DNA of 64,000 nucleotides from Hermatobates lingyangjiaoensis (Eukaryota > Arthropoda > Insecta > Hemiptera > Hermatobatidae): contig JAPFBL010000358.1 in assembly GCA_026182355.1 (NCBI GenBank), positions 370,001-434,000 of the forward strand, in the 5' to 3' direction. Each line of letters starts with the position of its first letter. Within the stretch, counting starts at the first letter, position 1. The notes under the pieces were generated by a model. It ran no database searches, was not told the origin of the DNA, and saw nothing but the letters and a program-made list of their open reading frames with translations. Shown here one piece after another: positions 9,475-57,241 of this stretch. A program made the translations under genes and the position numbers.

Positions 9475-9607
9475 AATTCAAAACGAAGGAAACACACAGA
9501 AAGACACAGACATAACTCACATCGATATTTCGACCATCGTCGTCATCAGGAGGTGTGAAGAGCGAAGAGTCCCTCAGGAAGGCAGGGTGATGACTCTTCA
9601 CGATCAA
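9404..9607. repeat. Decayed Penelope-type terminal-repeat fragment with (TA)n
   Basis: A (TA)n tract (9436-9470) is followed by sequence like the other hammerhead-bearing terminal-repeat fragments in the window ('aaacacacagaaagacac ... actcac'). The minus strand carries a complete hammerhead-like motif, annotated separately. No inverted partner arm is evident. Confidence 0.45.
9518..9555 (-). ncRNA. Candidate hammerhead ribozyme, family D
   Basis: On the minus strand CTGATGA (9549-9543) is followed by one extra C, stem II GAC/GTC with a GATG loop, GAAA, a self-complementary ATAT stem III and the cleavage triplet AUC at 9526-9524. Stem I pairs the six bases before the core (9555-9550) with those after the cleavage site (9523-9518) at five of six positions. 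The fold is inferred by eye. Confidence 0.6.
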
Positions 9608-9759
9608 TGATCAAAACAAATTAGTCTTTTTTCCCATTTCATATTGTGGTTTGATCATTGATATATATAGATATATATACTATATAATCACAATAAACAC
9701 GTGATGAAACTAATGAACGTATAAGCCACAAGGAAAAGTAAAAAAAACACAGAAAATAT

Positions 9760-9795
9760 GCTCTAAGGCCTTTCAATTATATGTCATCAGAGAGC
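9760..9795 (-). ncRNA. Candidate hammerhead ribozyme, family F, left arm of palindrome
   Basis: Minus strand: GCTCT (9795-9791), CTGATGA (9790-9784), a weak stem II, GAAA, self-complementary AGGCCT, cleavage triplet CUU, then AGAGC (9764-9760). Stem I is a perfect 5-bp helix. Stem II has only about two pairs, so activity may be low. It lies downstream of the GIY-YIG stop codon in the same sense. Confidence 0.55.
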
Positions 9796-9965
9796 AACTA
9801 GATATTGATAACAACAGAGGTTACAGGTTTGTTACAAAAACAAAATATGGGGAGACAAAACAAAACACATGTTAAATTATAAAAACATATAAAATACAAG
9901 CAAAAAAAAAGATAAAACAACAAAGAGAAACAAAACATACAATTTAACAAAAAGGAAACAAAATA

Positions 9966-10459
9966 CTAGGTACCAAAAGGAGAAACATCAGTTCGATTAG
10001 AGCCGACACTGCAGGACTTCAAACCATCACGAAGTCCAATTTGCCTGACAATACCTTCAACCAAAACATTATCCAATTTAAAAAGTCCCGAGCTGCTGTT
10101 CATGAGGTTTACACACCAATGTTTGATCAAGGCACTTTCCACAAGATTCCTTTCAATATTGGAAGCTAGAAACAACAGTTCCTTTGCATTTTCCCAATTC
10201 ATTGAATGTTTCTTGTTTTTTATATGTAGAAACACGGCACTGGACTCTTCCTGTCTTCGAATGGCATATTTATGCTGCTTCACCCTAGTAAGCAGGCTTT
10301 TTCCTGTTTGGCCAACATACCTTGAGTTACAATCACCACAAGGGATATTGTACACACAACCTTCTTTCTCCCTATTATGATTGCTCACCAATCTGTTAAA
10401 TAGGTTTCCTCCACAACTAAAAATAACGGAAATGCCGATTTTTTTCAAAAGAGAGGGAA
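9966..10459 (-). pseudogene. GIY-YIG endonuclease domain, Penelope-like element, left arm
   Basis: This is the mirror copy of the domain in the right arm. The open frame continues uninterrupted from 10538, but its first 26 or so residues read through the palindrome centre as antisense of the other arm, so they are not native protein. The native part includes 'VYNIPCGDC' and 'RYVGQTGKSLLTRVKQHK', matching the GIY and YIG motifs and the conserved arginine, then the later glutamate in 'RNLVESALIKHW'. The reverse transcriptase that should precede it is missing. Compared with the right arm it differs at a few residues only, mainly next to the centre. It cannot be autonomous, and I infer it is a truncated relic. 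Confidence 0.75.
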
Positions 10460-10460
10460 C

Positions 10461-10953
10461 ATCTCTTTTGCAGAAAAAAATCGGCATTTCCGTTATTTTT
10501 AGTTGTGGAGGAAACCTATTTAACAGATTGGTGAGCAATCATAATAGGGAGAAAGAAGGTTGTGTGTACAATATCCCTTGTGGTGATTGTAACTCAAGGT
10601 ATGTTGGCCAAACAGGAAAAAGCCTGCTTACTAGGGTGAAGCAGCATAAATATGCCATTCGAAGACAGGAAGAGTCCAGTGCCGTGTTTCTACATATAAA
10701 AAACAAGAAACATTCAATGAATTGGGAAAATGCAAAGGAACTGTTGTTTCTAGCTTCCAATATTGAAAGGAATCTTGTGGAAAGTGCCTTGATCAAACAT
10801 TGGTGTGTAAACCTCATGAACAGCAGCTCGGGATTTTTTAAATTGGATAATGTTTTGGTTGAAGGTATTGTCAGGCAAATTGGACTTCGTGATGGTTTGA
10901 AGTCCTGCAGTGTCGGCTCTAATCGAACTGATGTTTCTCCTTTTGGTACCTAG
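10461..10953 (+). pseudogene. GIY-YIG endonuclease domain, Penelope-like element, right arm
   Basis: The open frame runs from 10381 to 10953 (190 residues), but residues 1-26 come from antisense reading of the left arm. In that numbering the GIY motif is VYNI at 62-65, the YIG motif YVG at 74-76, the catalytic arginine R85, and the metal-binding glutamate E134. A CxxC pair (C67, C70) lies between the GIY and YIG motifs. This is the nuclease that nicks target DNA for Penelope-like retrotransposition. The reverse transcriptase is absent, so the copy is 5'-truncated. No inactivating substitution is visible in the nuclease motifs themselves. Confidence 0.8.
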
Positions 10954-11122
10954 TATTTTGTTTCCTTTTTGTTAAATTGTATGTTTTGTTTCTCTTTGTT
11001 GTTTTATCTTTTTTTTGCTTGTATTTTATATGTTTTTATAATTTAACATGTGTTTTGTTTTGTCTCCCCATATTTTGTTTTTGTAACAAACCTGTAACCT
11101 CTGTTGTTATCAATATCTAGTT

Positions 11123-11158
11123 GCTCTCTGATGACATATAATTGAAAGGCCTTAGAGC
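11123..11158 (+). ncRNA. Candidate hammerhead ribozyme, family F, right arm of palindrome
   Basis: Mirror copy of the motif at 9760-9795. GCTCT (11123-11127) pairs with AGAGC (11154-11158). The core is CTGATGA (11128-11134) and GAAA (11144-11147), with AGGCCT as self-complementary stem III. Cleavage would fall after 11153. Stem II is short and imperfect. Confidence 0.55.
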
Positions 11159-11238
11159 ATATTTTCTGTGTTTTTTTTTACTTTTCCTTGTGGCTTATAC
11201 GTTCATATAGATATATATATACAATATGATACAATATT

Positions 11239-11410
11239 ATCAAACCACAATAAGAAAAGGGAAAACAAGACTAAGATCTTTCAACCGTAACAAGCGGTCT
11301 TCGTCAGAGTCAAAAACCCTACTGACTTTTGGGGTTTTTGACTCTGACGGAGACTGCTTGTTATGGTTGAAAGATCTGAGTCTTGTTTTCCCATTTCATA
11401 TTGTGGTTTG
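11239..11410. repeat. Short palindrome, family E terminal repeat
   Basis: Arms 11239-11317 and 11334-11410 are inverted copies sharing 'gaaaacaagactaagatctt', the hammerhead region and, at the ends, the complement of 'cacaat'. The left arm carries a complete hammerhead-like motif on the minus strand. The right-arm motif (11344-11378, plus) is decayed: CTGACGG instead of CTGACGA, and a G at the cleavage position. The arrangement recurs at 32265-32715, and a one-arm trace is at 9625-9665. Confidence 0.75.
11269..11311 (-). ncRNA. Candidate hammerhead ribozyme, family E
   Basis: Minus strand: stem I GACT (11311-11308) pairs perfectly with AGTC (11272-11269). The core is CTGACGA (11307-11301), one extra A, stem II GACCG/CGGTT with a seven-base loop, then GAAA, self-complementary AGATCT and cleavage triplet CUU. 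All catalytic-core bases of the hammerhead consensus are present. Confidence 0.7.
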
Positions 11411-11451
11411 ATTATTGATTGTAATTTCACGTGTTTATGTGAAATCTTTAT

Positions 11452-12404: not shown

Positions 12405-12668
12405 TTCTGAGGTAAAATGGATAAACCAACAAAAATTTCCGTTTGTCCAGTTGTGTTCACTGGACCAACCCGTCAGTACCACATCCTTGGGTATGTCTTG
12501 AATTCTCTTAATTGAATTTTATTATTTCATTCTAATTTGTGTAACTAATTAGATATAATTTGTATTATAGTGTCTTCCTGATGATGAACACAAAGTGTTC
12601 GAAACGCGTTGAATAAAACTTCATTTGTGTGGAGACTTTTGTTGGTTTATCCATTTTACCTCAGAATG
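12405..12668. repeat. Palindromic family A terminal repeat
   Basis: The ends are inverted: 'cattctgaggtaaaatggat' (12404-12423) is mirrored at 12648-12667. The right half carries a complete hammerhead-like motif at 12573-12616. The left arm lost its partner motif. Related copies are at 39340-39520, 46250-46525 and the last unit of the array at 23.9 kb. Confidence 0.65.
12573..12616 (+). ncRNA. Candidate hammerhead ribozyme, family A
   Basis: CTGATGA (12578-12584) is followed by one extra T, a perfect six-pair stem II GAACAC/GTGTTC with an AAA loop, and GAAA (12601-12604). Stem III is the palindrome ACGCGT and the cleavage triplet is GUU, ending at 12610. Stem I pairs CTT-side bases 12575-12577 with GAA at 12611-12613, then has a mismatch. 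The two-base loop cannot close stem III in one molecule, so pairing between two copies is required. Confidence 0.7.
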
Positions 12669-12859
12669 TTTGTTTTGCTACAATTATAGGTTTTCATCTT
12701 TAGTGGTGTTCAAGATTCAGAAAGTGTGGCACGTTTATTGTTTGGCACTAATTTTGAGTTATGAGCAACCATATGTATGGAAGGTGTCTATGAAAATTGT
12801 GTAATATATTATTACGAACTTGGTAATCTGCATTAAATAGTTACCACAGAAAGTGAAGA

Positions 12860-13040
12860 AGCACACTTACAGACTCAAATTTTCTGGCAATCTGTCTTCA
12901 GGAGAAAAGCGAAAGGGAGACTAAGCACGTTGTAGGCGCAATGGCTAGTAACAACAGGCCTACAACGTGCTTGGTCTCCCTTTCTCTTTTCTCCTGAAGA
13001 CAGATTGCCCGAAAATTTGAGTCTGCAAATGTGTTTTTTC
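12860..13040. repeat. Palindrome with decayed family C hammerhead motifs
   Basis: Inverted arms share 'acgtgctt', 'tctcccttt' and 'cttttctcctgaagacagat'. Each arm holds CTGAAGA and, on the right, GAAAATTT, but stem II has lost its pairing (CAGATTGCCC), so both motifs are probably inactive. Centre near 12945. Confidence 0.65.
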
Positions 13041-13960
13041 CACTTTTTTTGAACTGTTATTGAGACCAGTTTGGACCTTCTTTCCGTTTATGAAGTGGAT
13101 AAAATAGTTATGTATACGTAAATAATATATATTTACGTTTTACTTTTTATTCTGGACATTCACTTTGAGTGCTCCACCAGGCTGATATCGCTAATATGAC
13201 GTTTCAGCTACTAATACCCATATCTCTTTAGTCTTTAAGTTTTCCATTAGATTTCTATTGCCAATTTTCTCTTAGGGTTTCCTTAAAATCCTTAAAAGAC
13301 CATATAAATTTGCAAAATAGGTCATAAAAACCACAAAACACTAAGCAGGTTAGTTTTCTCTAAAGTCAAATCTACTATTTCAACATTACAAAATAGTAAC
13401 ATAGTTTATCAAATTAATTATAACGACAAATTATGTAGGGCAAACCAGCCAGTATTTATCAAGCAGGATATCACAACATAAAACAGACATCATAGGACAA
13501 AAAATAACATGCGCTTTAGCAAAACACGCAATCAACCAAAAACACAATTTCGATTTTCAAAACCCCGTTACAATGGATAAAGAAAAACAATTGCGGAAAA
13601 GACTAGTAAAAGAAACAATCCATATAGGAAGAACCACAAACACATGTAACTCAAGAATAGATATAGAAAAATTCAGTAAAATATACACAAATATTTTTTC
13701 ACAATCAAACAGACAAGGGTAAGGACACAGCACTTAATTTTGCAAAACTGTATAAAACAAGAGAAGTTTTTACAAATGGAAAAAAACAAACGATACACAA
13801 CAGACTTCCCAGGTAAACAAATTTAAATCTCTGTAAATACTTATCAGTATAATACAAAACCAGACTAGAATACGTAAATCCATAGTTTATCTTTTTTGTT
13901 ACATATTAGCAAACAATAGACCTAATATAGTCGTAATATTTGTGTTCAAAGTATTAATAT

Positions 13961-14136: not shown

Positions 14137-14328
14137 TTAAATTACACAAAGCAGGACACAGAAAATAGAATAAAAAGAACACTTACAGAATCCAATATTC
14201 GAACTGTTGTTCGTCATCAGGAGTAGACTAGAAGAGAGTAGGAACAACAGTTCAAAATATTGAATTCTGTAAGTGTTCTTTTTATTCTTTTTTCTGTGTA
14301 GTGCTTTGTGTAATTTAAAGTTTTATAG
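14137..14328. repeat. Palindrome with decayed family D-like hammerhead motifs
   Basis: Arms share 'aatta cacaaagc' and 'aagaacacttacagaat' in inverted order. On the minus strand, CTGATGA (14213-14207) with extra C and stem II GAAC/GTTC is followed by GAATATT, one A short of GAAATATT. The plus-strand arm has CAAAATATT. Both are one step from the intact core. Confidence 0.65.
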
Positions 14329-15414
14329 TCCTTGTGGACCGTCTCTTAAATTTAGTATATATGTATATATATATATCCAATTGCTACAAAAAGTTTAATA
14401 TACAATTCTAACAAGTTAAATAAAAATCCTAAAATATAAAAAACAATAAAAGTGAAAAATTGAATAAAAAAAAATTATTCGAAACAAACATGATAAATCT
14501 GACTTGTTACTAAGAACAATTTTTAAGTGGAACAATAAAAAAACCCTGGAGGAAGTAATTGGAGTGATTCATGAAGGTGGCTTTCACTCAAGATGGTATC
14601 GAAGTCGGCTGCTTTAGAGGTTACAATTAAAAATCTAGTTGTTACACGTAAGCTGACGTGATTTATTTCTTATGATGTAATTAATAACATATTTCTTGCA
14701 AACTGCTCTATCGTGAAGAGAAGGAGATCGGAGACAGATAGTCCTTTGCCGTCATATTTAGGTCATGCCTACACGCCAATACTTATTTACTCTTTCATTC
14801 TACGCAATCTTGTTTAAATAGCTGTCATCCACTGTTTGCTCCCAAGACCCATGGCTATAGAGCCTCTCTATATTCGTCCTTAGTCATTCTTTAGTTATCG
14901 GCCAACCACATTATCCGGGTTGATCTTACACACGGAATCTTAAATTTGACTTCACACTTTTTTATTGTAAAATGAAACATTTGTTTAAAAAAAAAATCAT
15001 TTACGACATTGTTAGTAACTGACAAGAATGTTTTTCTAAACAAGTTCAAATATATATTGAAACATGGAAAGTCGAAGTGTTAAAGAAGCCTCAAGGTGAT
15101 TCGATATATTTCAAAACATGTTGCAATGAACATAACACTAAGCAAAGCAATTGCATCAATTAAGAGATGCGAAAATGAAAATCGTATGTAGAATATACGA
15201 AAAGGTTCAAATGAAAATGATAAATATTAAAATACTGCGTTCTATTCAACAAAATAAGCCTAAAGGAAGGCATTGGGCTTCTCCCAAATTACACCTATAA
15301 ATATATATATATATGGTATATATATATATTAAAATCTTGTCTAGTTAAATTATTGAAGCTAGACCAAACCTCAATAAAAAAAGAAAAATAATGTTATATA
15401 TATATATATATATA

Positions 15415-15640
15415 ATCAGTTCAAAAACGAAGAAAAACAACACACAGAGAAAGAGATGCACTTACAAACTCAAATTTTGGGGTGATCCGTCTTCAGGAGA
15501 AAGAGAATGGGCAACCAAGCACGCAGGAAACACAACGGCAGGAAACCTGGGTGATCGATTTTTAGTTTTTTCAATTGTGTCTCTTTCTCTGTGTGTTGCT
15601 TTCTTCCGTTTTTGAACTGATTTGCGTCCAGTTTGAATCG
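15415..15640. repeat. Palindrome, family C terminal repeat
   Basis: Arms share 'aatcagttcaaaaacgaag' and 'cacacagagaaagaga' in inverted order and are closely related to 27885-28165. The minus-strand motif has CTGAAGA with extra C, but the GAAA box reads CAAA. The right arm lost most of the motif. Confidence 0.7.
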
Positions 15641-16129
15641 TTTTTTCAAATTTTAAATATATATATATATTCACTTGCAAAGCCATAATTTCAGTATGTT
15701 TAAAGTTTAATCTTCACTTCTATTTGTCTTACTTCTTTCATATAAAATGCTTGAATTAATAAATTACTATTAAAATATTGAATTAAAGTAAAGGTAATAG
15801 TTATCATTTAGATCAATGACGGTAATATATAAATAATTAGTGGGTTGCGCTAACATGCTAAGTTAGCGAAAATCAGCCGCCGATTTCCGATAAAGTATAC
15901 ACATTGACTATGAATAATAAAAATATTGTTTATGCATTATATAAAGAATAATTATTGTCCATTTTTATGATTGTCCGTCATTTATTTTTGCATGTCAACT
16001 ATTACTCATTATTCTTCACATACCAAATGTTGCCCTAATCACAGGTTGGAAACTGATCCTACACTGTCATCTTTGAGTTTTGTCATTGCTTCAGCTTAAG
16101 TTCATCTCATCATCTAGAGAAGTTACTAA

Positions 16130-23059: not shown

Positions 23060-24020
23060 TAAGTCACCACACACAAGATGTCTCTGTCCTTTAATTCCTT
23101 AAGTAGTCAATATCACCTTAATGAGGCAAATGTAACCTGACGATGAGCACTAAGTCACCACACAGAAGAAGTCAGTGTCCTTTAACTCCTTAAGTAATCA
23201 ATATCACCTTACTGAGGCAAATGTAACCTGACGATGAACACTAAGTCTCCACACACAAGAAGTCAGTGTCCTTTAACTCTTTAAGTAGTCAATATCACCT
23301 TAATGAGGCAAATGTAATCTGACGATGAACACTAAGTCTCCACACACAAGAAGTCAGTGTCCTTTAACTCTTTAAGTAGTCAATATCACCTTAATGAGGC
23401 AAATGTAATCTGACGATGAACACTAAGTCTCCACACACAAGAAGTCAGTGTCCTTTAACTCTTTAAGTAGTCAATATCACCTTACTGAGGCAAATGTAAC
23501 CTGACGATGAACACTAAGTCTCCACACAGAAGAAGTCAGTGTCCTTTAACTCTTTATGTAGTCAATATCACCTTACTGAGGCAAATGTAACCTGACGATG
23601 AACACTAAGTCTCCACACACAAGAAGTCAGTGTCCTTTAACTCTTTATGTAGTCAATATCACCTTACTGAGGCAAATGTAACCTGACGATGAACACTAAG
23701 TCTCCACACAGAAGAAGTCAGTGTCCTTTAACTCCTTAAGTAATCAATATCACCTTACTGAGGCACATGTAACCTGACGATGAACACTAAGTCTCTACAC
23801 ACAAGAAGTCAGTGTCCTTTAACTCTTTAAGTAGTCAATATCACCTTACTGAGGCAAATGTAACCTGACGATGAACACTAAGTCTCCACGCACAAGAAGT
23901 CAGTGTCCTTTAACTCTTTAAGTAGTCAATATCACCTTACTGAGGCAAATGTAACCTGACGATGAACACTAAGTGTTCGAAACGCCTCCTCGTTTGATAA
24001 AATCTTTTTTCCGAGTGGAA
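23060..24020 (+). repeat. 91-bp tandem array, about ten units, ending in a hammerhead-like motif
   Basis: Each unit runs 'ctccacacacaagaagtcag' ... 'caatatcacctta' ... 'ctgacgatgaacactaagt'. Units are close to 91 bp, and sub-variants (ACAAG or AGAAG; CTTTAAG, CTTTATG or CCTTAAG) alternate along the array. Every unit ends with the 5' half of a hammerhead core (CTGACGA, one T, GAACACTAAGT). Only the last one, at 23956, continues into the second half with GAAA. The array therefore looks like amplification of the upstream part of a family A terminal repeat. Confidence 0.9.
23954..23998 (+). ncRNA. Candidate hammerhead ribozyme, family A, with a closed stem III
   Basis: CTGACGA (23956-23962), one extra T, a perfect stem II GAACAC/GTGTTC with loop TAA, then GAAA (23979-23982). 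Unlike other copies, ACG and CGT around a CCTCCT loop could form a monomeric stem III, with the cleavage triplet GUU. Stem I pairing is poor. It follows ten truncated copies of its own 5' half. Confidence 0.5.
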
Positions 24021-27135: not shown

Positions 27136-27300
27136 CTATTTTTCTTTTTTATCGAAGTTTGGTCCAGCTTTAATAATACAACACCTTTAAGCCGACATTT
27201 CATCTATATTTGTAGCCCTGAGGATGTCTAAAAATATAAACGAAACGTCGGCTAAAGGTGTTGTATTATTGAAGCAAGACTAAACCTCGATAAGAAAGAA
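26855..27300. repeat. Duplicated segment, copy 1, ending in a family B palindrome
   Basis: The 450-bp stretch from 'ctaaccgcttgtttcttgtt' through 'gttagcaggaggttaattcg' and a (TA)n tract to the palindrome at 27133-27300 recurs at 29463-29885 with few differences. The right part is a family B palindrome: 'caacacctttaagccgacat' is mirrored after the hammerhead motif. Copies differ mainly in TA-tract length, so the duplication is fairly recent. Confidence 0.8.
27213..27254 (+). ncRNA. Candidate hammerhead ribozyme, family B
   Basis: Stem I TAGCC (27213-27217) pairs perfectly with GGCTA (27250-27254). The core is CTGAGGA (27218-27224), one extra T, stem II GT-TA/TA-AC with one mismatch and a six-base loop, then GAAA (27242-27245). 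Stem III is the palindrome ACGT with no loop, so only a dimer can form it. The cleavage triplet is GUC ending at 27249. With the perfect stem I this is one of the strongest motifs. Confidence 0.7.
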
Positions 27301-27375: not shown

Positions 27376-27934
27376 AAACTAAATATGTATCATTATTTTC
27401 GTTGTTGAGATACGATTGATGTTGGTCAATCTCTCTCTGTTTCTCATATACACACAAAACAAATAAACAAACTCACCAATGTTTGTGACCGCTATACTAT
27501 TGATCTTGGAAAACCTCAACGTATATTTCTGTTGACAACTCCAAATAAAAGTAGACAAGACAGTCTAGTCGATGGTTTTGACCAGTTAAGATTGTTAGCT
27601 CGATTAAATAATGTCAATTTCATTTTCATATTAAAAAAATGTGTACTTCTGCTTATCAAAAATGTTTTCAAGCAAAAACCGAAACATCGGCATTGAGAGT
27701 TTGATTTTGAACCTAGAAAATTCATTTCGATTATTACTTAATAACTCTACCACTTTCCGACCTCATCCATCATCGACAGCAAACCAAATATTATTCTGTG
27801 TTATTCTGTATCACGACTGATCTGGAATCGATCACTGTCTTCCAAATGGAGATGATATTATTTTATATAAATAAGTAATAATAAATCAGTTTAAAAACGA
27901 AGGAAAGCATCACACAGAGAAAGAGACACACTTA

Positions 27935-27970
27935 CAAACCAAATTTTCGGATGATCCGTCTTCAGGAGAA
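27935..27970 (-). ncRNA. Candidate hammerhead ribozyme, family C
   Basis: Minus strand: CTGAAGA (27965-27959), one extra C, stem II GGA/TCC, GAAA, AATT stem III and triplet UUU ending at 27941. Stem I retains little pairing beyond the first base pair. Confidence 0.5.
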
Positions 27971-39335: not shown

Positions 39336-39339
39336 ATGG

Positions 39340-39520
39340 ACTCCACATATAAAAATTTTAATGGTATAAACAACGCGTTTCGAACACGTAGTGTTCTTCC
39401 TTAGACATTAACTAAAAAAGACACTGACACCTGTTAATGTCTGAGGAAAGACACTACGTGTTCGAAACGCGTTGTTTATACCATTAAAATTTTTATATGT
39501 GGAGACCATTTCATTAGCTT
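39340..39520. repeat. Palindrome, family A terminal repeat
   Basis: Arms of about 75 bp, 'ccacatataaaaattttaat' to 'acattaac' (39342-39413) and their mirror (39434-39506), are nearly identical. They enclose a short unique centre. Each arm carries a family A hammerhead core. The left one is damaged (CTAAGGA on the minus strand). Confidence 0.8.
39434..39480 (+). ncRNA. Candidate hammerhead ribozyme, family A
   Basis: CTGAGGA (39441-39447), one extra A, a stem II of about six pairs with an internal wobble (AGACAC/GTGTTC), GAAA (39464-39467), ACGCGT and GUU ending at 39473. Stem I shows only weak pairing. Confidence 0.5.
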
Positions 39521-39539
39521 TTTACCCTACAAGGAGTAA

Positions 39540-45237: not shown

Positions 45238-48200
45238 CTGTAACAATGTCGAGAATGACTTGACTGCGAAGTAGCAACGTATCCTTCAATTACCGCACAC
45301 ATCACCAAAGTACCAACAATAGACATTATTAAAGAGAAACTAAGGTTGTGCTAACTAAAACCACGCTCGTTAACATCCTTTTCAGATTCAGGCTTCCAGA
45401 GATGAGATATCGATGGCCATAAAAAACCCCTCAGTTTTAGAATTCATTACTTTTTTCAACAGTGAACATCCTTTAGTCTTCCCTCCTCATGTGGATACCT
45501 GGAAACATCGGATTGGAGGGGACACGAGACCGCGGGCCGGACGATCTCACGACAGAAAGGGCTGAATAAGCCTTCTCTCGACTTCAGTCATTTTGGCTAC
45601 TCCTCCAACCATCCTAAAGGGAATAATTACACAGTGGCTAGATAGGGGAGGTAAATAAATATAACTAGCTCATACTGATTTAAAGCTATGAAATAGGTTA
45701 ATTCCACTAAAACCTAAATTAATAAATACAATCATACAGTTTAAGATATTGGAAATAATACGTACGATTTACAAAGTTCACATAAAATATAACCAACATA
45801 AAATTGTTCTAGTAAAAAACAAAGTATTGTGAACTTTACCTTTACTTCTGAACACTTTGTGACTGTGAATCAATCAGTCCTAAAATCCTAAAAAGGATTA
45901 GGAACTCAAATAAAACCTGTCTGAGACATATCAAAATACGGATGATTACTGGGGGAATGCATGAGTTTATAATGAAACACAAATCCTGCATGAGTAAGAC
46001 TCTACCAAAGTCAGTTGTTTCAGTTGATAGATCGTAGCCACATTTTCGAATTTCTTCCGGTGGTTTAGAACAGTGATGGCGAACCTATGATACGCGTGTC
46101 AGTGTTGACACGCAACCTCAATTATGGTGACACACATCTTCAAAAATGAAAAACATCATAATTGCAATATTTGTCTCTCATAACAGTCAAAATTGGTTAT
46201 TAATAATAATATTATTAAATCTGTAAATAATAATTAATATTTTAAATCATTAGTTGTGCAATCCATAATTGTGTGGTACGATTTACTCATTTACTCGTAT
46301 TTATTCATTTATTTACTTATTTACTCGTATTTACTCATTCTGAGGTAAAGTGGATTAACAAACAAAAGTCTCCACACAAATGAAGTTTTCTTCGACAAAA
46401 ACAACGCGTTTCGAACACTTTGTGTTCATCATCAGGAAGACAAAAGTGTTTGAAACGCGTTGTTGTTGTTGAATAAAACTTCATTTGTGTGGAGACTTTT
46501 GTTTGTTTATCCATTTTACCTCAGAATGAATTAATACTTTGTTTCTGAAACCAGACGTGTATGCACAACTACAATATATTGCGTAACAAATATACATATT
46601 AACATTTAAACATATAGTTCTAATATAAAAATGCTAAATTCTGAAAACATGCTAAATTATAAATACTAAATTCCTAAATTTTTGTTTCATAATTTTGGTT
46701 TTTGTATTTTAAATGGCATTAAAAAAATTAACATTTAAATATTCTGTTTTAATATTGCTATTCATAAAAATTTTAAATTGTGAAAACATGCTAAATTCTA
46801 AATGCTAAACTTTTGGTTTTTGCATTTTAAATGGCACTAAACAAATAATTAACTTACAAAAATTATAAATATTTCTATTTCTTTTTATTCTTTACTTTTG
46901 GGATGTGTGACAGGCCATGAAAATTATTTCTCGATTTTGCAAAATTCTGACACACCGAACTAAAAAGGTTTACTATCACTTTTTAAAATGGTTTAGACGT
47001 TTATGTATATATATAAATCTCCTCCAAGACAAAACATACACAAGAAAACACCAATATTTTGGTCACGATATTTCGACCTTTATTGTCATCATCAAGAGGG
47101 TGAGGTAAGGTAATTCAAGACTGTTTTCTCTCAGTGATTTCATTATACATGTAACTCAGAGTTAATTGGGATTCAAGAGTTGATTTGAAGTGACTGAGCT
47201 GTTAGATAATGTAACTGCATATTACCAGACAGACGATGATGAGCAGGGTGTATATGTGGATGGTGGTGTCCGGTAGAGACTCCATGGCTGCCAGAGCAGC
47301 GACAGCAGGCTCAAAGCCGGGCTTTAGCTGAAGACAATGACGCATGTGCAGGGAAGCTTCTTGATAGTGGCCGTATGCCTAAACAATTAGTTTTAAGCCA
47401 TTTGGTTTAAATAATACAAAGTCCATCACAAAATCTACCGCATAAAGTAAAGCTTCCAACAAATAGTTAACCAATTACATCGAACACAAATCATCACACC
47501 AAACATCTCTGAAGAACTTTCTTCAATACTTGGAACTGAAACACAGAGTATTTCAGACGCGAACACAGAATACAAACCAGTGTCAGAACTAACACTAGAT
47601 TTACACTGGAACTTTTCAAAACAACCATTTCCGTTAGTTAGTTCAACTGTTAGGAAGAAGAAAGAGTTATAGGAAAACAAATGGTACGTACTGCCTCTTC
47701 TAAAAAAAAACTGGTTTCAAAACCCATATACTGAGGAAAAAATAATATAAATATAACTTAAATTCAAAATAAAAAATTTAAATTGCATTAAAAAAAATTA
47801 ATATTTAAATATACTGTTTTAATATTGATATTAAAATTATTGATATTGATATTTTGATTTTTACAATCAAAATAAAAATAATATAACTCCTAGTAAAGCT
47901 ACTAGTGCAAATTAGTCCAATAGGTGCTTATTACACAGGATAAAAAGGAGAAATAATTTCCTAAAGTAAATCTTGAAGCGATAAATTAAGTTATTGGGAA
48001 GTCAGAAGTTATAATCATAGCTAAAGACAAAGATGGAAATAGGTTAGTTAAAACTGATTATGAGATTCCACTTTCAAAGACTTTTCCTATAATGTGGAAT
48101 TAAGAAAGTGAGTTTCTTCACCGACAAAGTATAAATACTTTAACAGATCTGTGTCAGGATCGTTACCCCTGACACAATTCCAAAAGCCTGTATTGAAATT

Positions 48201-49001
48201 AAATCATCTTCGAGTGATTTCAAATTCTTAAATTTCACTGACCTTAAAGATCTGTCCAAGAGTGAAATACTGCTGCCAAGCATTACGATCAGGAGGATGC
48301 ACTTCCAAGGACCTTTGAGTCAAATAGATGGCATCATCAAGATACTGCAAGTTGTACAGCACTCGGGCAAGATTTAGCAGCACCTAAAAAAAACGAAATT
48401 AAAACTAATTGTAACAAACTTAGTCACCTAGCTAACATCAGCAATGGTCATTCCATAATTCAACAAAAAAAAAAAAAATCCATGTATATACCAATTAAAT
48501 GAAACGATTCCACGAAATACAAAAACTAGATTTACAGAAAGAAGACACCCCAGAAAACTCGTCGTCTTCTGTCTTCGGATAGACAGACTCCTTCTTTATC
48601 TCTCTACCTAATGACGACGCAGTCGAAATATACTAGTGAGTTTCTGTAATCTCTTTTTATGAGTGTCTTTTCTCTGAATCTAGTTTATATATGTATATAT
48701 ATATCAAACGATTTAAAGAAAAGAACACGTAGAAACAATACACCACTCACTTCAATATTTCGACCTCGTCGTCATCAGGACAAGGAGAAGAAGAAGGTGA
48801 GTTCTGCTCGGCTGGCAAGCAGCCTATATATATTATATATATAAAACTTTGAATTACACAAAGTACGACACAGAAAAGGGAATAAAAAGCACACTTACAG
48901 AATTCTCTATATATCAAACTGTTGTTCGTCATCAGGAGTAGACTAGAAGAGAGAACGAAGTGAGAGAGATCTCCCCACGTCGAAGGACGGAGCGCGAATA
49001 T

Positions 49002-52000: not shown

Positions 52001-55000
52001 TTCTCCAGAAAAAAGTATGATGCCAAAATTATAGAGAAATGTGAGTGAGTAATTTGTTAGAATATCACATTACAATAGTTAGTTTGTGAGTTAATTAATA
52101 TAATTGTTTAATTATTTTATTTATTAGTGACGACCCCAAAACTCATGGATTACAGTGTAAAATGTATATTTGTTAAGCTATTCAGTGGACTATTGCCAAT
52201 CCAGCGAAAAATAGAATGAAAATCAGCAGAAAAATATTCAATGCTGATTAAGCATCGCATTTTAATTTCATATATTTAAGAGATTTGTTGTCATTTTACT
52301 AATAAATACATAGATGGAGACTTAAACACTGTGAATTACCACTAACCCAACGAAAAATAGAAAGAACATTGGAAGCATTCAGAAAGATAATAAACTGGTA
52401 TGTGCCTCTTCAGAAGCCCTTAAGGTGACAATGGTGTTGGGGTATCAGGGATATGTTTAAGAATTAGCATTCAGAAAGATAATAAACTGGTATGAGCCTC
52501 TTCAGAAGCCCTTAAGGCAGTGGTTTTCAACCAGTAATCCGCGGATCACTGGTGATCCGTGACGTTTACCCAGGGGATCCGCAAGACCTACAGATTCACA
52601 ATGTGCAATTAATGTATTATCAATGTGTACACGTCAATGTAAGTACAGTAGTACACTATCAATGTAATTAGTGCATCTTATCAAGATAACTCGTCGTACA
52701 CATCTAAAACCAGCAACTTTCGGTAACGTTAGGGAAGAATTGCGAGCCAAAATTTGAGTCGGGCAGTTCAGTTATGATGACGACCTACGTCATTTAATTG
52801 AAACATTTAATTTAGCCAATACGTGACGCTCTGATTGTTTACTTCTTGATCTGGACTCATTTTGGATTTTAACTGCAAAAGAATATCCATCAATCTCGAA
52901 TAAGGCTCTGCGCATTCTCCTACAGTTTTCTACATCATACCTGTGTGAAATAGGATTTTCCACTATGACGAACATTAAAAGTGAGAAAAGAAATAAACTA
53001 CTAGCACTTGAAGAAGAGATGCGTGTATGTCTTTCTAAAACCAGGCCAAACTTTCCAGTTCTGTTCAAAAATCACCTAGGACAAATTTCACATTAATTTG
53101 TAATTCTCTTGAATCAAAAAATTCAGATAGTACTGTATTGTGTTTTTGTGTTTATAAGCCATTTTTATTTCATAAAAAAAACTTATATATATATATGTAT
53201 ATTTATGTACAAGGGGATCCGCAAGAATAAATAAGCTCCTCGGCGGATCCGCGCCTGCAAAAAGGTTGAAAAGCACTGCCTTAAGGTGACAATGGTGTTG
53301 GGGTATCGGGGATATGTTTAAGAATTAGCATTCGGAAAGATAATAAACTGGTATGAGCCTCTTCAGAAGCCCTTAAGGTGACAATGGTGTTGGGTATCGG
53401 GGATATGTTTAAAATTAGCATTCGGAAAGATAATAAACTGGTATGTGTCTCTTTAGAAGCCCTTAAGGTGACAATGGTGTTGGGGTATCGGGGATATGTT
53501 TAAGAATTAGCATTCGGAAAGATAATAAACTGGTATGAGCCTCTTCAGAAGCCCTTAAGGTGACAATGGTGTTGGGGTATCGGGGATATGTTTAAGAATT
53601 AGCATTCGGAAAGATAATAAACTGGTATGTGTCTCTTTAGAAGCCCTTAAGGTGACAATGGTGTTGGGGTATCGGGGATATGTTTAAGAATTAGCATTCG
53701 GAAAGATAATAAACTGGTATGAGCCTCATCAGAAGCCCTTAAGGTGACAATGGTGTTGGGGTATCGGGATATGTTTAAGAATTAGCATTCGGAAAGATAA
53801 TAAACTGGTATGAGCCTCTTCAGAAGCCCTTAAGGTGACAATGGTGTTGGGGTATCGGGATATGTTTAAGAATTAGCATTCGGAAAGATAATAAACTGGT
53901 ATGAGCCTCTTCAGAAGCCCTTAAGGTGACAATGGTGTTGGGGTATCGGGGATATGTTTAAGAATTAGCATTCGGAAAGATAATAAACTGGTATGAGCCT
54001 CTTCAGAAGCCCTTAAGGTGACAATGGTGTTGGGGTATCGGGGATATGTTTAAGAATTAGCATTCGGAAAGATAATAAACTGGTATGAGCCTCTTCAGAA
54101 GCCCTTAAGGTGACAATGGTGTTGGGGTATCGGGGATATGTTTAAGAATTAGCATTCGGAAAGATAATAAACTGGTATGTGTCTCTTTAGAAGCCCTTAA
54201 GGTGACAATGGTGTTGGGGTATCGGGGATATGTTTAAGAATTAGCATTCGGAAAGATAATAAACTGGTATGTGCCTCTTCAGAAGCCCTTAAGGTGACAA
54301 TGGTGTAGGGGTATCGGGGATATGTTTAAGAATTAGCATTCGGAAACAGTCTTTGAAGTTTCCGAATTTGAAGTGAAAGTTTGTTTGGTTGGAAATACGG
54401 AGATTGATAAACTGAACAACACAAGTCCTGTCATTATTGATAGGCAAGTTCAACATGGTAGCAAACTCACATAAAAAGCGTAGCACAGGGTACTGTCCAG
54501 TCGGTATAAACAGCTTTGAGAAGTACAGGAAGTCTTGATATTTATAGGGTGGATATAATTGTCAGTATACGAAGCGTAGTATGGGTCAGGATTGATTATG
54601 ATCAAGCCTGAAAGTTTCGACGCCCATACTTACGCATATTACCAGTCTCATTGCTAATTACCTTAGGTTTAGGGAAAAGGTGGTAAAAAATAAACTTAAG
54701 ATAAGGAGGTTTTCAGTATGAAATGGAAGAGGGTTCACCTAAAGGATGAAGAAATAGAAGAGGATAGGAAAAAACTCCAATGAAACCGAGGGAAAATAGT
54801 AGTAGTCACCACGATCCCTCTGAGGCCTTCAATGAGAATGAGCAGATAAGACGCAACTAATTGATTAAATTAAAACAGCCACACGCAGTTGATTTCTGTT
54901 TTTTGGGAGAAAACATTCACTGCAAATTTTAGAGAGGCTTATAGACATGGATATAGGAATAGTCTTCTTTACATGAGATGATATGTTACAAAGAAACATA

Positions 55001-57241
55001 GAGAAATCAAAAGAACACACTTAGAGTCTCTAATTTTCGGTTTGAACCGTCTTCAGGAGAGATAAGAGAGGGAAACCAAGCGCACTAGTTCAGAGACCAA
55101 CCGTCTCTGATCCAGTGCGCTTGGTTTCCCTCTCTTATCTCTCCTGAAGACGGTTCAAACCGAAAATTAGAGACTGTAAGTGTGTTCTTTTGATTTCTCT
55201 ATGTTTCTTTGTCTATATTGAACTATATATATATATATATACCAATTAAGTGAAAAGGTTTCAAGAACTGAATAAACTAGATTCACAAAAAGACCACACA
55301 GAAATGAAACAGAAAACTGTCAGCTTAAGAAGATGCACTTATCAGTCTCCTGGGAGGTAGATCTGCTCCTGACCTTAACCTCAATCCTCCATTATTCCTT
55401 TGATTTGTTTACTTATTTATTTTTAGTTAATTTTTTTATAATGTCTTAATAGTTTTTATTTAATTTTTTTTTCATTCGTTTATTATTTATTTCTTTATCT
55501 GTCCATGTCTCCCCTCCCTTCATAAGTTGAATACACTGTTTGTGTGCTTCTTCAAGGTCACCACCAGTCAGTTGTTTCCAATCCTTGGAACGATTCACAT
55601 CTATCTACCTGATGACGAGGCCATCGGAATATAGGAGTGAGTTTCTGTTTCATTTCTGTGTGTTTTTTTGAGAATATAGTTTAAATATATAGAGTTGAAC
55701 CTGTATTTTCCTTATCTCTCAACCTGATGACAACATAGTCATAATATAGTATCGAATTTCTATGATGTCTTTTAAGTATATTCTTTCTGTGAATCTCGTT
55801 AATATATTTGCAATTTAAATTATTATCAACTGTACCAGTTTCTATAACTATACTATTATACATACTACTATACATACTAATATATTATACTATATACATA
55901 CTGTATGTATCATTTGCGACTTGCCGTTACATTTATATATATATATATATATATTATCAATATATTTTTTTCTTAAATAATAATTTTACCCTAGAATTCC
56001 AGAGTCATTTAAGTAAAGATGTAGGTATAAACAATAATGAATATGTGTTCCATTGAACAGAAACAGTAAGTGTCAGTAGACGAATAATATTGTGTAAAAA
56101 TCCATCTCTTCTTGTGCCACTAATGCAAAAATAAATTGTTTATTTCATTTTAACTGGATAATTAAAAAAAAACAAATTATTACACTTCGTTCATATCAAA
56201 TTTTATAATTACTAAATTTCTTAAAACCATTAGTTGAAGTCAGTTTTAATAGCAAATATTGGGTATTTCTCACAAAGTCCAAAAATAATAACAATTTGAA
56301 AATGTGTTCAAATCTTAAATGATCTTTCCGATATCTACTTCAACCACTTATCACTGACATGGAAGGATAACAATAACAATTGTCATAATAAATGTAACAG
56401 GTAAAGATGGTACACAAAGTACATATAATTTTTTCACCTACCTCTGCATTGTGAGGGGATACAGCTAAAGCTCTTCTAAAGCATTCAATACTCTTGTACG
56501 AATCACCCTTAATACGCCAAAAGTTGCCTATTTGGTTGTACAATTGTACAGATTTAGGTTTTTCACGTTTGGCTTTCTTTAACTTCTTTTCAAGTACTTC
56601 GACATCATATTCAGAACCTTTTTTCTTAAAAATAAGACTCATCTGAAACAATTACATAATTGCACATATATATTGAAATTTGGTTACGTTTTACAAAGAA
56701 CACAAATTTCGATTTACTTGAGATTCAGAAACATTTGGATGTGTCAGCCTATTAGCTACTCCAAATAATTTATCATAATAAGTGAAATTTACAGGTTTTC
56801 CACAATCCAAAACTTCATCATCAACATCAGAATTAACAGATTTATTCTTCACATCACCCCTTAAACAAAACAATATATATGTCCATTATTATTCGCCGAA
56901 ATTTAGTTGACAACACAAAATAATGTAAACACAACTTACAAGTGGACGACTGAGCTATTTTGACAATCAGTGCAATACTTTTCAATATTTCTTTTGCCCC
57001 AAGAACTTCCATAATTAACAGAAGTTGTAATGACACTGAAAACAGGGTCATCCATTTCCTCTTGTAATGAAGTGAGGAAATTTGGAAACTTGTTTACCTC
57101 TAGAAGCTTCCCTTCATCGATGTTCAATTTCATCATAGTTGTTCCTGAGTTCGTATTCATAATATTGCACGCAAGTGCATATATGATAAGAAAAACGTTT
57201 GGTACCACTCGGTGCATTTTCATAACTTCAAGATTAATCAC
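44974..57241 (-). CDS. TTC17-like tetratricopeptide-repeat membrane protein (six coding exons)
   Basis: Coding exons on the minus strand: 57241-56940, 56859-56718, 56642-56442, 48383-48243, 47378-47226 and 45237-44974. All have AG/GT borders and joined phases, giving 400 residues (394 if the second methionine at 57223 is used). The N-terminus 'VVPNVFLIIYALAC' is a signal peptide. 'LFGVANRL' followed by 'NQIGNFWRIKGDSYKSIECF' and 'RRALAVSPHNAEV' resembles the C-terminal TPR block of TTC17. Two further TPRs follow ('NLARVLYNLQYLDDAIYLTQ', 'AYGHYQEASLHMRHCLQLKP'). Residues around the exon 5/6 junction, 'IHIYTLLIIVCLVVGVLLVM', form a transmembrane helix. A proline-rich tail ends in another hydrophobic stretch. 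The protein is much shorter than vertebrate TTC17 (over 1100 residues), so it may be a separate TPR family. Function is not known from sequence. Confidence 0.75.
46250..46525. repeat. Family A terminal-repeat palindrome
   Basis: It shares 'catta gttgtgcaatcc' and the 'tgaggtaaa' ends with the copy at 12360-12668. The arms 46351-46412 and 46450-46525 are inverted. The left half has the intact hammerhead motif on the minus strand. The right half has only the 3' part (GTTTGAAACGCGTTG, 46458-46472). Confidence 0.7.
46395..46442 (-). ncRNA. Candidate hammerhead ribozyme, family A
   Basis: Minus strand: CTGATGA (46435-46429), one extra T, a perfect stem II GAACAC/GTGTTC, GAAA, ACGCGT and GUU ending at 46403. 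It is identical through the core to the motif at 12573-12616, 34 kb away. Confidence 0.65.
47050..47100 (-). ncRNA. Decayed hammerhead-like motif, family D
   Basis: Minus strand: TTGATGA instead of CTGATGA, then a stem II of GAC/GTC type, GAAA, ATAT and AUC. One core base (C3) is lost. Confidence 0.35.
47226..47378 (-). other. TTC17-like gene, coding exon 5 (TPR and start of membrane helix)
   Basis: 51 codons in phase 0. The last TPR helix pair ends in 'LQLKPGFEPAVAAL', and the exon finishes inside the membrane helix with 'LLIIVCL'. It is more GC-rich than the introns around it. Confidence 0.8.
48243..48383 (-). other. TTC17-like gene, coding exon 4 (TPR)
   Basis: This is exactly 47 codons, in phase 0 at both ends, encoding a TPR with 'LLNLARVLYNLQYLDDAIYL'. 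The acceptor is a T run ending in AG and the donor is AAG|GTCAGTG. Confidence 0.8.
48470..48990. repeat. Cluster of decayed terminal repeats with hammerhead motifs
   Basis: Three pieces follow each other: a plus-strand motif at 48604 with CTAATGA, stem II GAC/GTC and GAAATAT; a minus-strand intact motif at 48744-48784; and a minus-strand motif near 48940 with CTGATGA, stem II GAAC/GTTT and TTGATAT. They are separated by TA tracts. Confidence 0.6.
48744..48784 (-). ncRNA. Candidate hammerhead ribozyme, family D
   Basis: Minus strand: CTGATGA (48778-48772), one extra C, stem II GAC/GTC with GAG loop, GAAA, ATAT and AUU ending at 48754. Stem I has two pairs next to the core and weak pairing beyond. 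Confidence 0.55.
49024..49410. repeat. Tandem repeat, about 115 bp, 3.5 units
   Basis: The phrase 'aaagtatcgaccgtggaata' recurs with 'tcctcatagaaacccatatt' and 'tattatcccaaa'. The second unit is shortened. The last ends in an inverted piece, 'gagtcccgataaactttatt', complementary to 'aaactaaagtttatcgggac' upstream, so a hairpin closes the array. Confidence 0.75.
49411..50106. other. Intron sequence without recognised elements
   Basis: AT-rich intron 3 sequence of the TTC17-like gene. No coding or repeat signature is visible. Confidence 0.4.
50109..51022 (+). mobile_element. Internally deleted mariner transposon
   Basis: Terminal inverted repeats of 28 bp starting CGAGGTGT match at 27 of 28 positions, and TA dinucleotides flank the element (50107-50108 and 51023-51024). 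At 914 bp it is about 350-400 bp shorter than a full mariner. The coding region keeps the N- and C-terminal parts but has lost the middle. It lies in intron 3 of the TTC17-like gene, in the opposite orientation. Confidence 0.9.
50299..50963 (+). pseudogene. Mariner transposase with internal deletion
   Basis: From the ATG at 50299, 'MSDLKVEQRCAIKFCFRLGH' starts the paired-like DNA-binding domain. 'VFRWFKEFSEGRESIEDEPR' then leads into the linker 'SGRPSS' and 'LNHTSVHHILTNELEMRKIC'. Near 50668 the frame jumps: downstream sequence in another frame encodes 'NIPVAPQPPYSPDLS' to the natural C-terminus, 'FEGDNITL', at 50963. About 150 residues with the first two catalytic aspartates are missing. At the third catalytic position the usual aspartate after PYSPDL is histidine (LYHFFLF). 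It cannot be catalytic. Confidence 0.85.
51025..52368. other. Intron sequence including a dispersed repeat
   Basis: Intron 3 of the TTC17-like gene. 51755-51980 is the second copy of the unknown repeat at 430-700. The rest is AT-rich with no recognised element. Confidence 0.5.
52518..53278 (+). mobile_element. hAT transposon, internally deleted, with 8-bp target duplication
   Basis: The ends CAGTGGTTTTCAACC and the mirror of GGTTGAAAAGCACTG match at 14 of 15 positions. CCTTAAGG is duplicated on both sides (52510-52517 and 53279-53286), the 8-bp duplication typical of hAT elements. Subterminal 'ggggatccgcaaga' repeats occur near both ends. The 761-bp element keeps only the 3' end of a transposase gene. 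It lies in the 92-bp array, so it inserted after at least part of the array existed. Confidence 0.95.
52851..53096 (+). pseudogene. hAT transposase C-terminal dimerisation-domain relic
   Basis: The frame reads 'LDSFWILTAKEYPSISNKAL' then 'RILLQFSTSYLCEIGFSTMT' and 'NIKSEKRNKLLALEEEMRVC', stopping at 53094. This matches the C-terminal hAT dimerisation region seen in ZBED5/FAM200-like transposases (FW-KEYP-L---AL--LL-F-TSYLCE-GFS-M--IK---RN-L). Upstream the same frame contains a stop (TGA near 52823). The catalytic domain and BED zinc finger are missing. Confidence 0.85.
54346..54984. other. Intron sequence
   Basis: Part of intron 3 of the TTC17-like gene. No element is recognised. Confidence 0.4.
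55024..55063 (-). ncRNA. Candidate hammerhead ribozyme, family C
   Basis: Minus strand: CTGAAGA (55056-55050), one extra C, stem II GGTT/AACC, GAAA, AATT, triplet UUA, then GAGA pairing perfectly with TCTC before the core. It is the mirror image of the motif at 55138. Confidence 0.7.
55138..55176 (+). ncRNA. Candidate hammerhead ribozyme, family C
   Basis: Stem I TCTC (55140-55143) pairs with GAGA (55170-55173). The core is CTGAAGA (55144-55150), extra C, stem II GGTT/AACC with a two-base loop (or GGT/ACC with four), GAAA (55162-55165), self-complementary AATT, triplet UUA ending at 55169. All core positions fit the consensus. Confidence 0.7.
55255..55680. repeat. Decayed palindromic terminal repeat
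   Basis: 'aaactagattcacaaaaaga' and 'cacacagaaatgaaacagaa' on the left are mirrored by 'gtttctgtttcatttctgtg' near 55640. A plus-strand motif at 55612 has CTGATGA, but GGAATA replaces GAAATA. A third trace, CTGATGA with ATAATATAG, is at 55724. Confidence 0.6.
55681..56441. other. Intron sequence with (TA)n
   Basis: The 3' side of intron 3 of the TTC17-like gene, towards its splice donor at 56441. It contains a (TA)n tract at 55934-55955 and no recognised element. Confidence 0.4.
56442..56859 (-). other. TTC17-like gene, coding exons 2 and 3
   Basis: Exon 2 is 56859-56718 and exon 3 is 56642-56442, separated by a 75-bp intron. Exon 3 encodes a lysine-rich linker and the first TPR. Intron 3, which follows, is 8.06 kb and holds most transposons in this region. 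Confidence 0.8.
56940..57241 (-). other. TTC17-like gene, coding exon 1 (signal peptide)
   Basis: The exon starts at the methionine at 57241 or 57223 and ends at the donor TT|GTAAGT. The second ATG gives a shorter, more typical signal-peptide n-region (MKMHR). The mature part contains no TPR and one short cysteine pair. Confidence 0.75.

Follow-up and report, generated by a model that had tools for sequence, protein, structure and literature searches.

Hammerhead ribozymes of Penelope-like elements (PLEs) have been described as minimal type I motifs that lack helix III and possibly cleave themselves in dimeric form (PMC7761336, PMC6155905), and many animal genomes carry thousands of minimal hammerhead motifs (PMC7761336). 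Dimeric hammerheads are reported to require a palindromic stem III sequence together with a tandem arrangement (PMC6466107), and palindromic stem III words in eukaryotic hammerheads have been noted by Perreault et al. (PMC3088659). Non-LTR retrozymes consist of units of 150-450 bp, repeated head to tail, that carry a canonical type I hammerhead (PMC7229834). In the present study, a stretch of 64,000 nucleotides from the hemipteran insect Hermatobates lingyangjiaoensis (contig JAPFBL010000358.1, positions 370,001 to 434,000; hereafter the window, meaning the whole of this stretch) was analysed for such motifs. The hammerhead motifs of the window are, with high probability, minimal type I hammerheads of endonuclease-containing PLEs, belonging to at least six families, and many of them lie in severely 5'-truncated terminal-repeat insertions arranged head to head. 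The window is a dense set of an already known kind, that of the PLE-associated, dimer-type minimal hammerheads.

Hammerhead motifs and their pairing

An earlier reading of this DNA (the original prediction) had reported about sixteen near-complete hammerhead motifs in six or more families. The pattern CTGANGAN{4,30}GAAA, searched for on both strands, gave 29 matches (two with one common start) compared with 4.25 expected, and 0/100 shuffles reached 29. Counted as distinct, exact CTGANGA...GAAA cores number 28, as against 3.66 expected from 300 dinucleotide shuffles (maximum 12). A loop-less self-complementary A...T word followed by H accompanies the core in 20/28 cases, compared with 0.34 in shuffles (maximum 3), and 12/28 have in addition a stem II of at least 3 bp offset by one nucleotide, compared with 0.02 (maximum 1). 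These core counts are inflated by copies of common descent; at the level of families, each of the six has one or more copies with the loop-less word. Assignment to families was possible for 22 of the 28 exact cores, 19 of which have the loop-less word, and the other six (11622-, 38324+, 39676-, 42500+, 47509+ and 58064+, given as position and strand) were judged to be chance cores, close to the expected number. One of the latter, 38324+ (ATTATAAT), is counted among the 20 loop-less cores and two, 11622- and 39676-, among the 17 with stem II described below, while none is among the 12. The motifs are confirmed as genuine hammerhead-ribozyme motifs of at least six sequence families (F1 to F6; Table 1). 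They occur where the original prediction had placed them, with all of its named stem I and stem II pairs located, and its family count holds; the copies are more numerous than it had stated, 26 being recovered by a covariance model at E ≤ 3e-4.

This model, R1, was built from an alignment (A1) of 21 rows, and its matches comprise these 21 training rows and five others (32627+, 39360-, 15458-, 23949+ and 14179-), all of them copies of families already recognised; the E-values of the covariance models are rough. Alignment A1 leaves out 33057-, 33102+, 23956+, 44727+, 32634+, 39404-, 15496-, 14220-, 48935- and weaker copies. At 60617-60669 on the minus strand, where R1 gave E=0.002, a perfect GGTTTT/AAAACC stem II is followed by GAAACGTC and the core is broken (CTGCCCCGA...); the site probably represents an additional family, its hammerhead having decayed.

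Stem II of at least 3 bp was found in 17/28 cores when one nucleotide after A9 was skipped, in 1/28 without the skip and in 0/28 when two were skipped. The skipped nucleotide is C, T or A, and the offset holds in F2-F6. All five stem II pairs of the original prediction were located, namely GAACAC/GTGTTC, GACCG/CGGTT, GGTT/AACC, GAC/GTC and GTcTA/TAaAC. An extra nucleotide in the hammerhead core is reportedly the title subject of a 2001 paper by De la Pena and Flores, and chrysanthemum chlorotic mottle viroid is said to have an extra core nucleotide between A9 and G10.1. Across the 21 rows (20 distinct, six families), 82.1% of stem II cells are paired compared with 60.2% after shuffling, and the covariation score is 0.490 compared with 0.208, with 0/500 shuffles as high in either case; sliding stem II by 1-3 columns lowered the score to at most 0.14. 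Omission of F4 and F5 (11 rows) left 85.2% of cells paired and a score of 0.567, again with 0/500 shuffles as high. Because the rows were selected for the motif and themselves served to define the structure, the pairing counts lean towards it, and related rows weaken the figures; the drop is nevertheless sharp for each of the slid positions. With this reservation, covariation of stem II exceeds chance, as had been predicted.

Stem I pairs as predicted in the best copies, with GCTCT/AGAGC at 11123, GACT/AGTC on the minus strand near 11307, TAGCC/GGCTA at 27213 and TCTC/GAGA at 55140. In many other copies it is weak, with 0-2 contiguous pairs in 10 of 20 loop-less cores. Pairing at the level of families nevertheless reached 3.82/6 positions, compared with 2.69 when families were swapped, and 0/265 derangements were as high. 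This comparison, like the partner and GTRAG counts below, used 28 hand-listed units, which leave out 23956+, 44727+, 55602+, 55717+ and 60617-.

The order of CTGANGA, stem II, GAAA and NUH stood as first described, but the short stem III of that description did not. In 20/28 cores a self-complementary word without a loop begins at the last A of GAAA; it ends in T, and the next nucleotide is A, C or T. The words are AGGCCT (F1), AGATCT (F2), ACGCGT (F3), AATT (F4 and one F5 copy), ATAT (F5) and ACGT (F6). We take these positions to be A15.1...U16.1, followed by H17, of a type I ribozyme with a loop-less helix III. Each unit is built, in this order, from stem I, a CUGANGA core that is in most cases followed by a single additional nucleotide, stem II, GAAA, the loop-less word and the cleavage triplet. 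Since the word has no loop, stem III would be unable to close in a monomer and could form only between two units, A15.1...U16.1 of both strands lying in one continuous helix. Cleavage would accordingly need two units on one tandem transcript, or two transcripts that meet. In a live PLE the second unit would come from the tandem arrangement, and multimeric transcripts would be trimmed by cleavage in the pseudo-long terminal repeat (pseudo-LTR). Homodimer energies were computed and were not used as evidence, because dimerising benefits any self-complementary RNA. For F3 and F6, a type III interpretation with a long hairpin was also set aside; their arms do pair with each other, but a word of the same kind after GAAA and the offset stem II occur also without such a hairpin.

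Head-to-head insertions and their probable relation to Penelope-like elements

Many of the motifs sit in palindromes, both arms of which point outwards; among the 28 units, same-family pairs are head to head in eight cases and F5 pairs face each other in two. The largest of these palindromes is the F1 insertion, the inverted repeats of which are 100% complementary over 544 and 170 bp. The motif CVYNIPCGDC..YVGQTGKSL..R..QH can be read directly in its GIY-YIG-like open reading frame (ORF), and the F1 hammerhead is located 3' of this ORF and on its strand, in the position of the 3' pseudo-LTR of a PLE. A second GIY-YIG-like fragment of the window is 39% identical to the F1 ORF over 46 aa. When the flanks of F1 were compared, only ATATATAC was common to both sides, the remainder of the candidate target-site duplication being matched by eye.

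In 9/11 head-to-head insertions (F1, F2a, F2b, F3a, F3b, F4a, F4b, F4d and F6b) a single arm bears a tail of about 20-33 nt, in F6a both arms bear one and in F4c neither does; these 11 were the insertions scored for tails (F1, F2a, F2b, F3a, F3b, F4a-d, F6a and F6b), F3c, F3d and the F5 pairs being left out. The tails of F1 and F2 are alike and each is predicted to fold as a stem-loop, that of F3b comes after extra GAGTAAATA-like units and that of F6 is short and A-rich. Sister arms form the most similar pair (88-97%) in F3a, F3b, F4a, F4b and F4c when compared with arms of other insertions, as expected if the pairs were formed at insertion. Of ten insertions for which both arms entered the comparison (F2a, F2b, F3a, F3b, F4a-d, F6a and F6b), five thus look as if they were made anew at insertion; the F1 arms are nearly identical, and there is no other F1 copy for arm comparison. 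The GIY-YIG-like ORFs of the F1 copies, the head-to-head arms and the one-arm tails agree with the suggestion, made in the original prediction, of Penelope-like terminal repeats, and we infer that the families without protein sequence are of PLE origin as well.

The PLE protein of Anolis cuts and extends both strands, and internal starts of its reverse transcriptase define the tail (PMC11167929). The head-to-head insertions of the window most likely arise when the PLE protein primes reverse transcription on either side of a break, starting at internal sites. Two cDNAs joined by their 5' ends, with the 3' ends outwards, would give a head-to-head insertion, and the choice of start site would explain an optional one-arm tail. 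Self-priming on an antisense template is a published alternative for inverted arms (PMC3846280); by inference, two-sided priming is favoured over it. The association of these ribozymes with head-to-head insertions bearing one-arm tails offers a structural clue to PLE integration.

Several results weigh against the assignment of the motifs to dimer-cleaving PLE hammerheads. The Rfam test put forward with the original prediction gave no match to any hammerhead model in the window, either at the gathering score or at E ≤ 10. Stem II is unconvincing in F1, where it is too weak to show the extra nucleotide after A9, and decayed in F4a. Two of the five covariation measures failed against shuffles, two-sided changes being equalled in 153/500 and further pair types in 78/500 with 21 rows; for the same two cruder measures with 11 rows, 56/500 and 51/500 shuffles were as high. 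A model trained on F4 and F5 only (R2) recovered two copies of F3 (E=0.005 and 0.029) but none of F1, F2 or F6, and one trained on F1, F2, F3 and F6 only found one F5 copy at E=0.06, all others being at E ≥ 0.46. As to the protein, the F1 ORF matched Pfam PF01541 at E=0.0025 and 18.5 bits, under the cut-off of 22.6, and the fragment at 13405-13719 matched the unrelated CNNM2 model at E=0.015, slightly better than GIY-YIG and also under the cut-off. No relatives of the F1 ORF were found among solved structures or in a protein search, the length filter of which excludes full-length PLE proteins, and its AlphaFold prediction without an alignment (pLDDT 30.5) was not used. A PLE reverse transcriptase was not recognised by eye among ORFs of at least 58 aa in the window, for which no profile search was made. 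The tails were scored by eye without a control. Arms of F2 are 90-92% alike in all combinations, the left arm of F4d is 89% identical to the right arm of F4b compared with 86% to its own partner (63 bp), and F6 was duplicated as a whole, along with some 300 bp of flanking sequence. Target-site duplications are poor, being plausible only at F1 and F4d, both flanked by AT repeats; for Penelope elements of Adineta vaga they are 8-10 bp (PMC3846280). Finally, only one same-strand pair with a common stem III word lies within 1 kb (48778-/48935-, 157 nt apart, among the 28 units). As there is a single close pair, only a few of the loci could form tandem dimers for cleavage in cis; most loci of the window appear incapable of it, or would need trans dimers.

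It follows from these sequence features that ribozyme activity within the window is doubtful, while ribozyme function in the parent elements is likely. Many of the window copies are relics. The stronger possibility that the ribozyme worked in a PLE ancestor and that no activity is left in the window is compatible with the PLE assignment, and we give it an even chance. Truncated arms, the lone same-strand pair and the mutated cores or stem III words of nine listed copies (11344+, 32634+, 39404-, 48608+, 47095-, 48935-, 14220-, 15496- and 32327-) speak for it. The identity of the F1 arms throughout both repeats, with core, stem I and stem III word intact, does not fit with complete loss, and F2 11307-, F4c and F3 12578+ likewise retain all parts.

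Miniature inverted-repeat transposable elements (MITEs) of the DNA transposon type, with palindromic arms that mimic a hammerhead by chance, are very unlikely to account for the motifs. With the exceptions of F1 and F2b, head-to-head units form palindromes about 145-280 bp long, F6 looking the most MITE-like, and the best of the weak Rfam matches are microRNA precursor models, as expected of long hairpins. Palindromy of the arms, however, does not account for the presence in each arm of CTGANGA, an offset stem II and, after GAAA, a self-complementary word, such a word being common to six families; the one-arm tails make the ends asymmetric, unlike symmetric terminal inverted repeats, and F1 bears GIY-YIG-like ORFs. 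A fixed-length target-site duplication was not found at the inverted-arm insertions. A plant origin and a microRNA or MITE reading, both drawn from the weak Rfam matches themselves, were set aside given the GIY-YIG-like ORFs, the NECAP gene and the mariner transposases of the window, which point to an animal. Non-LTR retrozymes moved as circular RNAs, also raised in the original prediction, are the least credible source, for while short dispersed non-coding elements with hammerheads in an animal and a 91-bp tandem array adjoining one motif recall them, stem III is not closed in most units (20/28 loop-less), neighbouring hammerheads are mainly head to head and not head to tail, and no tandem unit with a complete hammerhead was found, the adjoining array (23055-23974) repeating only a half motif with CTGACGATG...AACACTAAGT and without GTTCGAAA in its consensus.

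Minimal type I hammerheads of PLEs thus account best for the motifs. Plain sequence statistics suffice to show that, in a single animal, an entire group of PLE-like families has hammerheads unable to close stem III, and the loop-less self-complementary word together with one nucleotide between A9 and stem II provides a descriptor for motifs that Rfam misses in the window.

A splice-donor-like sequence and the setting of the motifs

GTRAG, a sequence resembling a splice donor, starts 3-9 nt after the predicted cleavage point in 12/16 F4 and F5 copies, that is in five of seven F4 copies (12901-, 27965-, 28052+, 55144+ and 15496-) and seven of nine F5 copies (9549-, 28736+, 48608+, 48778-, 48935-, 14220- and 33102+), and in 0/12 copies of F1, F2, F3 and F6; the background is 0.0127 per ten start positions. 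Because F4 and F5 look related, the occurrences may go back to one or two inherited events and not to twelve. PLEs, unlike other retrotransposon types, can keep introns when jumping (PMC3846280). It is conceivable, though unlikely, that the F4/F5 ribozyme overlaps a 5' splice site and that dimerisation, set by the amount of element RNA, chooses between mRNA and an intron-bearing genomic template. Cleavage would then cut the 5' exon off just before the intron, so that cleaved RNA would keep the intron and spliced mRNA would make protein. Dimer-dependent cleavage would explain the intron retention of PLEs and, if the overlap holds in intact elements, this old puzzle would become directly testable. 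Against such a switch, genomic copies of F4 and F5 include sequence upstream of the cleavage site, and their own templates were therefore uncut there. A literature search for a tie between Penelope hammerheads and splice sites gave one review, in which the mention of splice sites concerns back-splicing of host genes.

The window is AT-rich, with a GC content of 26-36% per 4-kb step, and no tRNA genes were found in it by ARAGORN. Among the 120 listed of 213 relatives of the NECAP-type exons, the named ones come mainly from insects; a mite, a cnidarian and a fish are also represented. The NECAP-type, TPR-like and mariner sequences mark the window as animal DNA, probably from an arthropod. Some F4/F5 hammerheads may sit within introns of the TPR-like gene. 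A full F3-like motif at 23956 follows the end of the 91-bp array, which seems to have grown inside an F3 insertion. Satellite-like arrays at 35195-35876 and 53279-54346, with periods of 71 and 92 bp, contain 0/29 core matches. A palindrome at 18954-19560 has 241-bp arms that are 95% complementary and holds, by eye, a transposase-like frame (MATPQEKTQCVSWFIKTES...). A dispersed repeat of about 300 bp is present in inverted copies at 8173-8469 and 60127-60423, about 90% identical, with a further direct copy at 8946-9043; a weak tRNA-like match (22 bits, below the gathering score) lies at 8153-8222, and the repeat may be a short interspersed element (SINE).

Table 1. Hammerhead copies, insertions and other features by position in the window (word, stem III word; training row, row used to train R1; aa, amino acids)
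Feature	Positions	Strand	Details
F1 Penelope-like insertion	9681..11206		two 5'-truncated copies head to head; arms 9713-10454, 10462-11206; arm alignment
F1 tail	9681-9712		left arm only; by eye
F1 left-arm C-terminal GIY-YIG endonuclease-like ORF	9969..10538	-	190 aa; Pfam and motif
F1 right-arm GIY-YIG endonuclease-like ORF	10381..10950	+	190 aa; same ORF as in left arm
F1 hammerhead	9753..9797	-	stem I GCTCT/AGAGC, word AGGCCT, triplet CTT, stem II unconvincing; E=1.2e-4, training row
F1 hammerhead, other arm	11121..11165	+	training row
F1 candidate target-site duplication	9667..9680		ATAGATATATATAC; partner ATAGATATATATATAC at 11207-11222; AT-rich, weak
Second GIY-YIG endonuclease-like fragment	13405..13719	+	YVGQTSQYL..RISQHK, 105 aa; GIY-YIG E=0.02, under cut-off
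F2a head-to-head pair	11230..11448		arms 11230-11319, 11332-11423; stem-loop tail 11424-11448, right arm
F2 hammerhead	11261..11314	-	stem II GACCG/CGGTT, word AGATCT, stem I GACT/AGTC; E=1e-6, training row
F2 hammerhead	11337..11390	+	mutated core (CTGACGG, H17=G); training row
F2b head-to-head pair	32263..32740		about 270 bp between arms; tail on right arm
F2 hammerhead	32281..32334	-	decayed word (AGATCG); training row
F2 hammerhead	32627..32680	+	mutated core (CTGACAA); R1 E=3.6e-5, outside training
F3 hammerhead	12571..12622	+	stem II GAACAC/GTGTTC, word ACGCGT; training row
F3a head-to-head pair with tail	39303..39574		pair 39303-39542; right-arm tail 39543-39574
F3 hammerhead	39360..39411	-	mutated core (CTAAGGA); R1 E=6e-5, outside training
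F3 hammerhead	39434..39485	+	stem II partly mutated; training row
F3b head-to-head pair	46327..46537		joint within stem II, full core on one arm only
F3 hammerhead	46393..46442	-	word ACGCGT; training row; R2 (F4/F5-trained) E=0.005
F3-like hammerhead at 91-bp array end	23949..23998	+	stem III ACG-loop-CGT; R1 E=2.2e-4, outside training
F4a head-to-head pair	12836..13083		tail after 13058
F4 hammerhead	12863..12908	-	word AATT, stem II decayed; training row
F4 hammerhead	12987..13032	+	stem II decayed; training row
F4b head-to-head pair	27883..28164		arms 27883-27998, 28016-28134; tail 28135-28164
F4 hammerhead	27927..27972	-	stem II GGAT/ATCC; training row
F4 hammerhead	28045..28090	+	stem II GGAT/ATCC; E=6.6e-8, training row
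F4c head-to-head pair	54988..55212		arms 97% identical; family tail recognised on neither side
F4 hammerhead	55017..55063	-	stem I TCTC/GAGA, stem II GGTT/AACC, AATT+A; training row
F4 hammerhead, other F4c arm	55137..55183	+	training row
F4d head-to-head pair	15414..15655		within AT repeat; tail on right arm
F4d left-arm hammerhead	15458-15503	-	CAAA for GAAA; R1 E=1e-4, outside training
F5 hammerhead	9510..9556	-	stem II GAC/GTC, word ATAT; training row
F5 hammerhead	14179..14227	-	GAAT for GAAA; R1 E=2.8e-4, outside training
F5 hammerhead	28729..28782	+	stem II GAAC(T)/(A)GTTC, word ATAT; training row
F5-like degenerate head-to-head pair	33020..33138		33020-33064 (-), 33095-33138 (+); R1 E=0.09, 0.58
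F5 hammerhead	47053..47102	-	core TTGATGA; training row
F5 hammerhead	48601..48646	+	core CTAATGA; training row
F5 hammerhead	48740..48785	-	stem II GAC/GTC, word ATAT; training row
F5 hammerhead	48891..48942	-	GATA for GAAA; R1 E=0.07; same-strand partner of 48740-48785
F6 hammerhead	27211..27263	+	stem I TAGCC/GGCTA, word ACGT, triplet GTC; training row
F6 hammerhead	29798..29850	+	stem I damaged; segmental duplicate of 27211-27263; training row
91-bp tandem repeats	23055-23974		ten units; consensus joins CTGACGATG to AACACTAAGT, the 5' half of the F3 hammerhead
Incomplete mariner-type transposase frame	25458-26168	-	one of two such frames; Pfam matches of the two: Transposase_1 E=3e-23, HTH_48 E=6.5e-12
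Incomplete mariner-type transposase frame	50272-50745	+	second of the two frames
TPR-like exon	56343-56651	-	best E=5.5e-5, under Pfam cut-off
NECAP-type gene exons (DUF1681)	57630-58182	+	Pfam E=9e-25 and 5e-20

Comparison with known systems

The closest counterparts are the minimal, dimer-cleaving hammerheads of PLEs (Cervera & de la Pena 2014; Lunse, Weinberg & Breaker 2017), with which the motifs of the window share the type I order, the lack of helix III, the self-complementary word, a link with PLE terminal repeats and dispersed copies. They differ from these in that about 26 recognisable copies of six families are packed into 64 kb, with frequent head-to-head and rare tandem arrangement, and may differ also in the extra nucleotide after A9 of F2-F6. 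The architecture of the insertions resembles that of the endonuclease-containing Penelope elements of Adineta vaga, which have inverted head-to-head pseudo-LTRs, palindromic joints, an optional 31-bp one-arm tail and a GIY-YIG domain (PMC3846280), whereas in most copies of the window the arms are only about 60-125 bp long and an intact ORF is missing; the main text of that paper makes no use of the word 'hammerhead'. PAc, a Poseidon element of Anolis carolinensis, resembles the present insertions in that its tail corresponds to the sequence between internal reverse transcriptase starts and both strands are cut and extended. In contrast to the window copies, it is an active full-length element, and its hammerhead is protein-assisted and dispensable for insertion in vitro (PMC11167929). 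A likeness of another kind is found in the double hammerheads of newt, axolotl and ASBVd, in which a weak stem III is rescued by palindromic pairing between units; the amphibian hammerheads, however, keep a stem of one base pair with a palindromic tetraloop, whereas the motifs of the window have no loop (PMC6155905, PMC7229834, PMC6466107).

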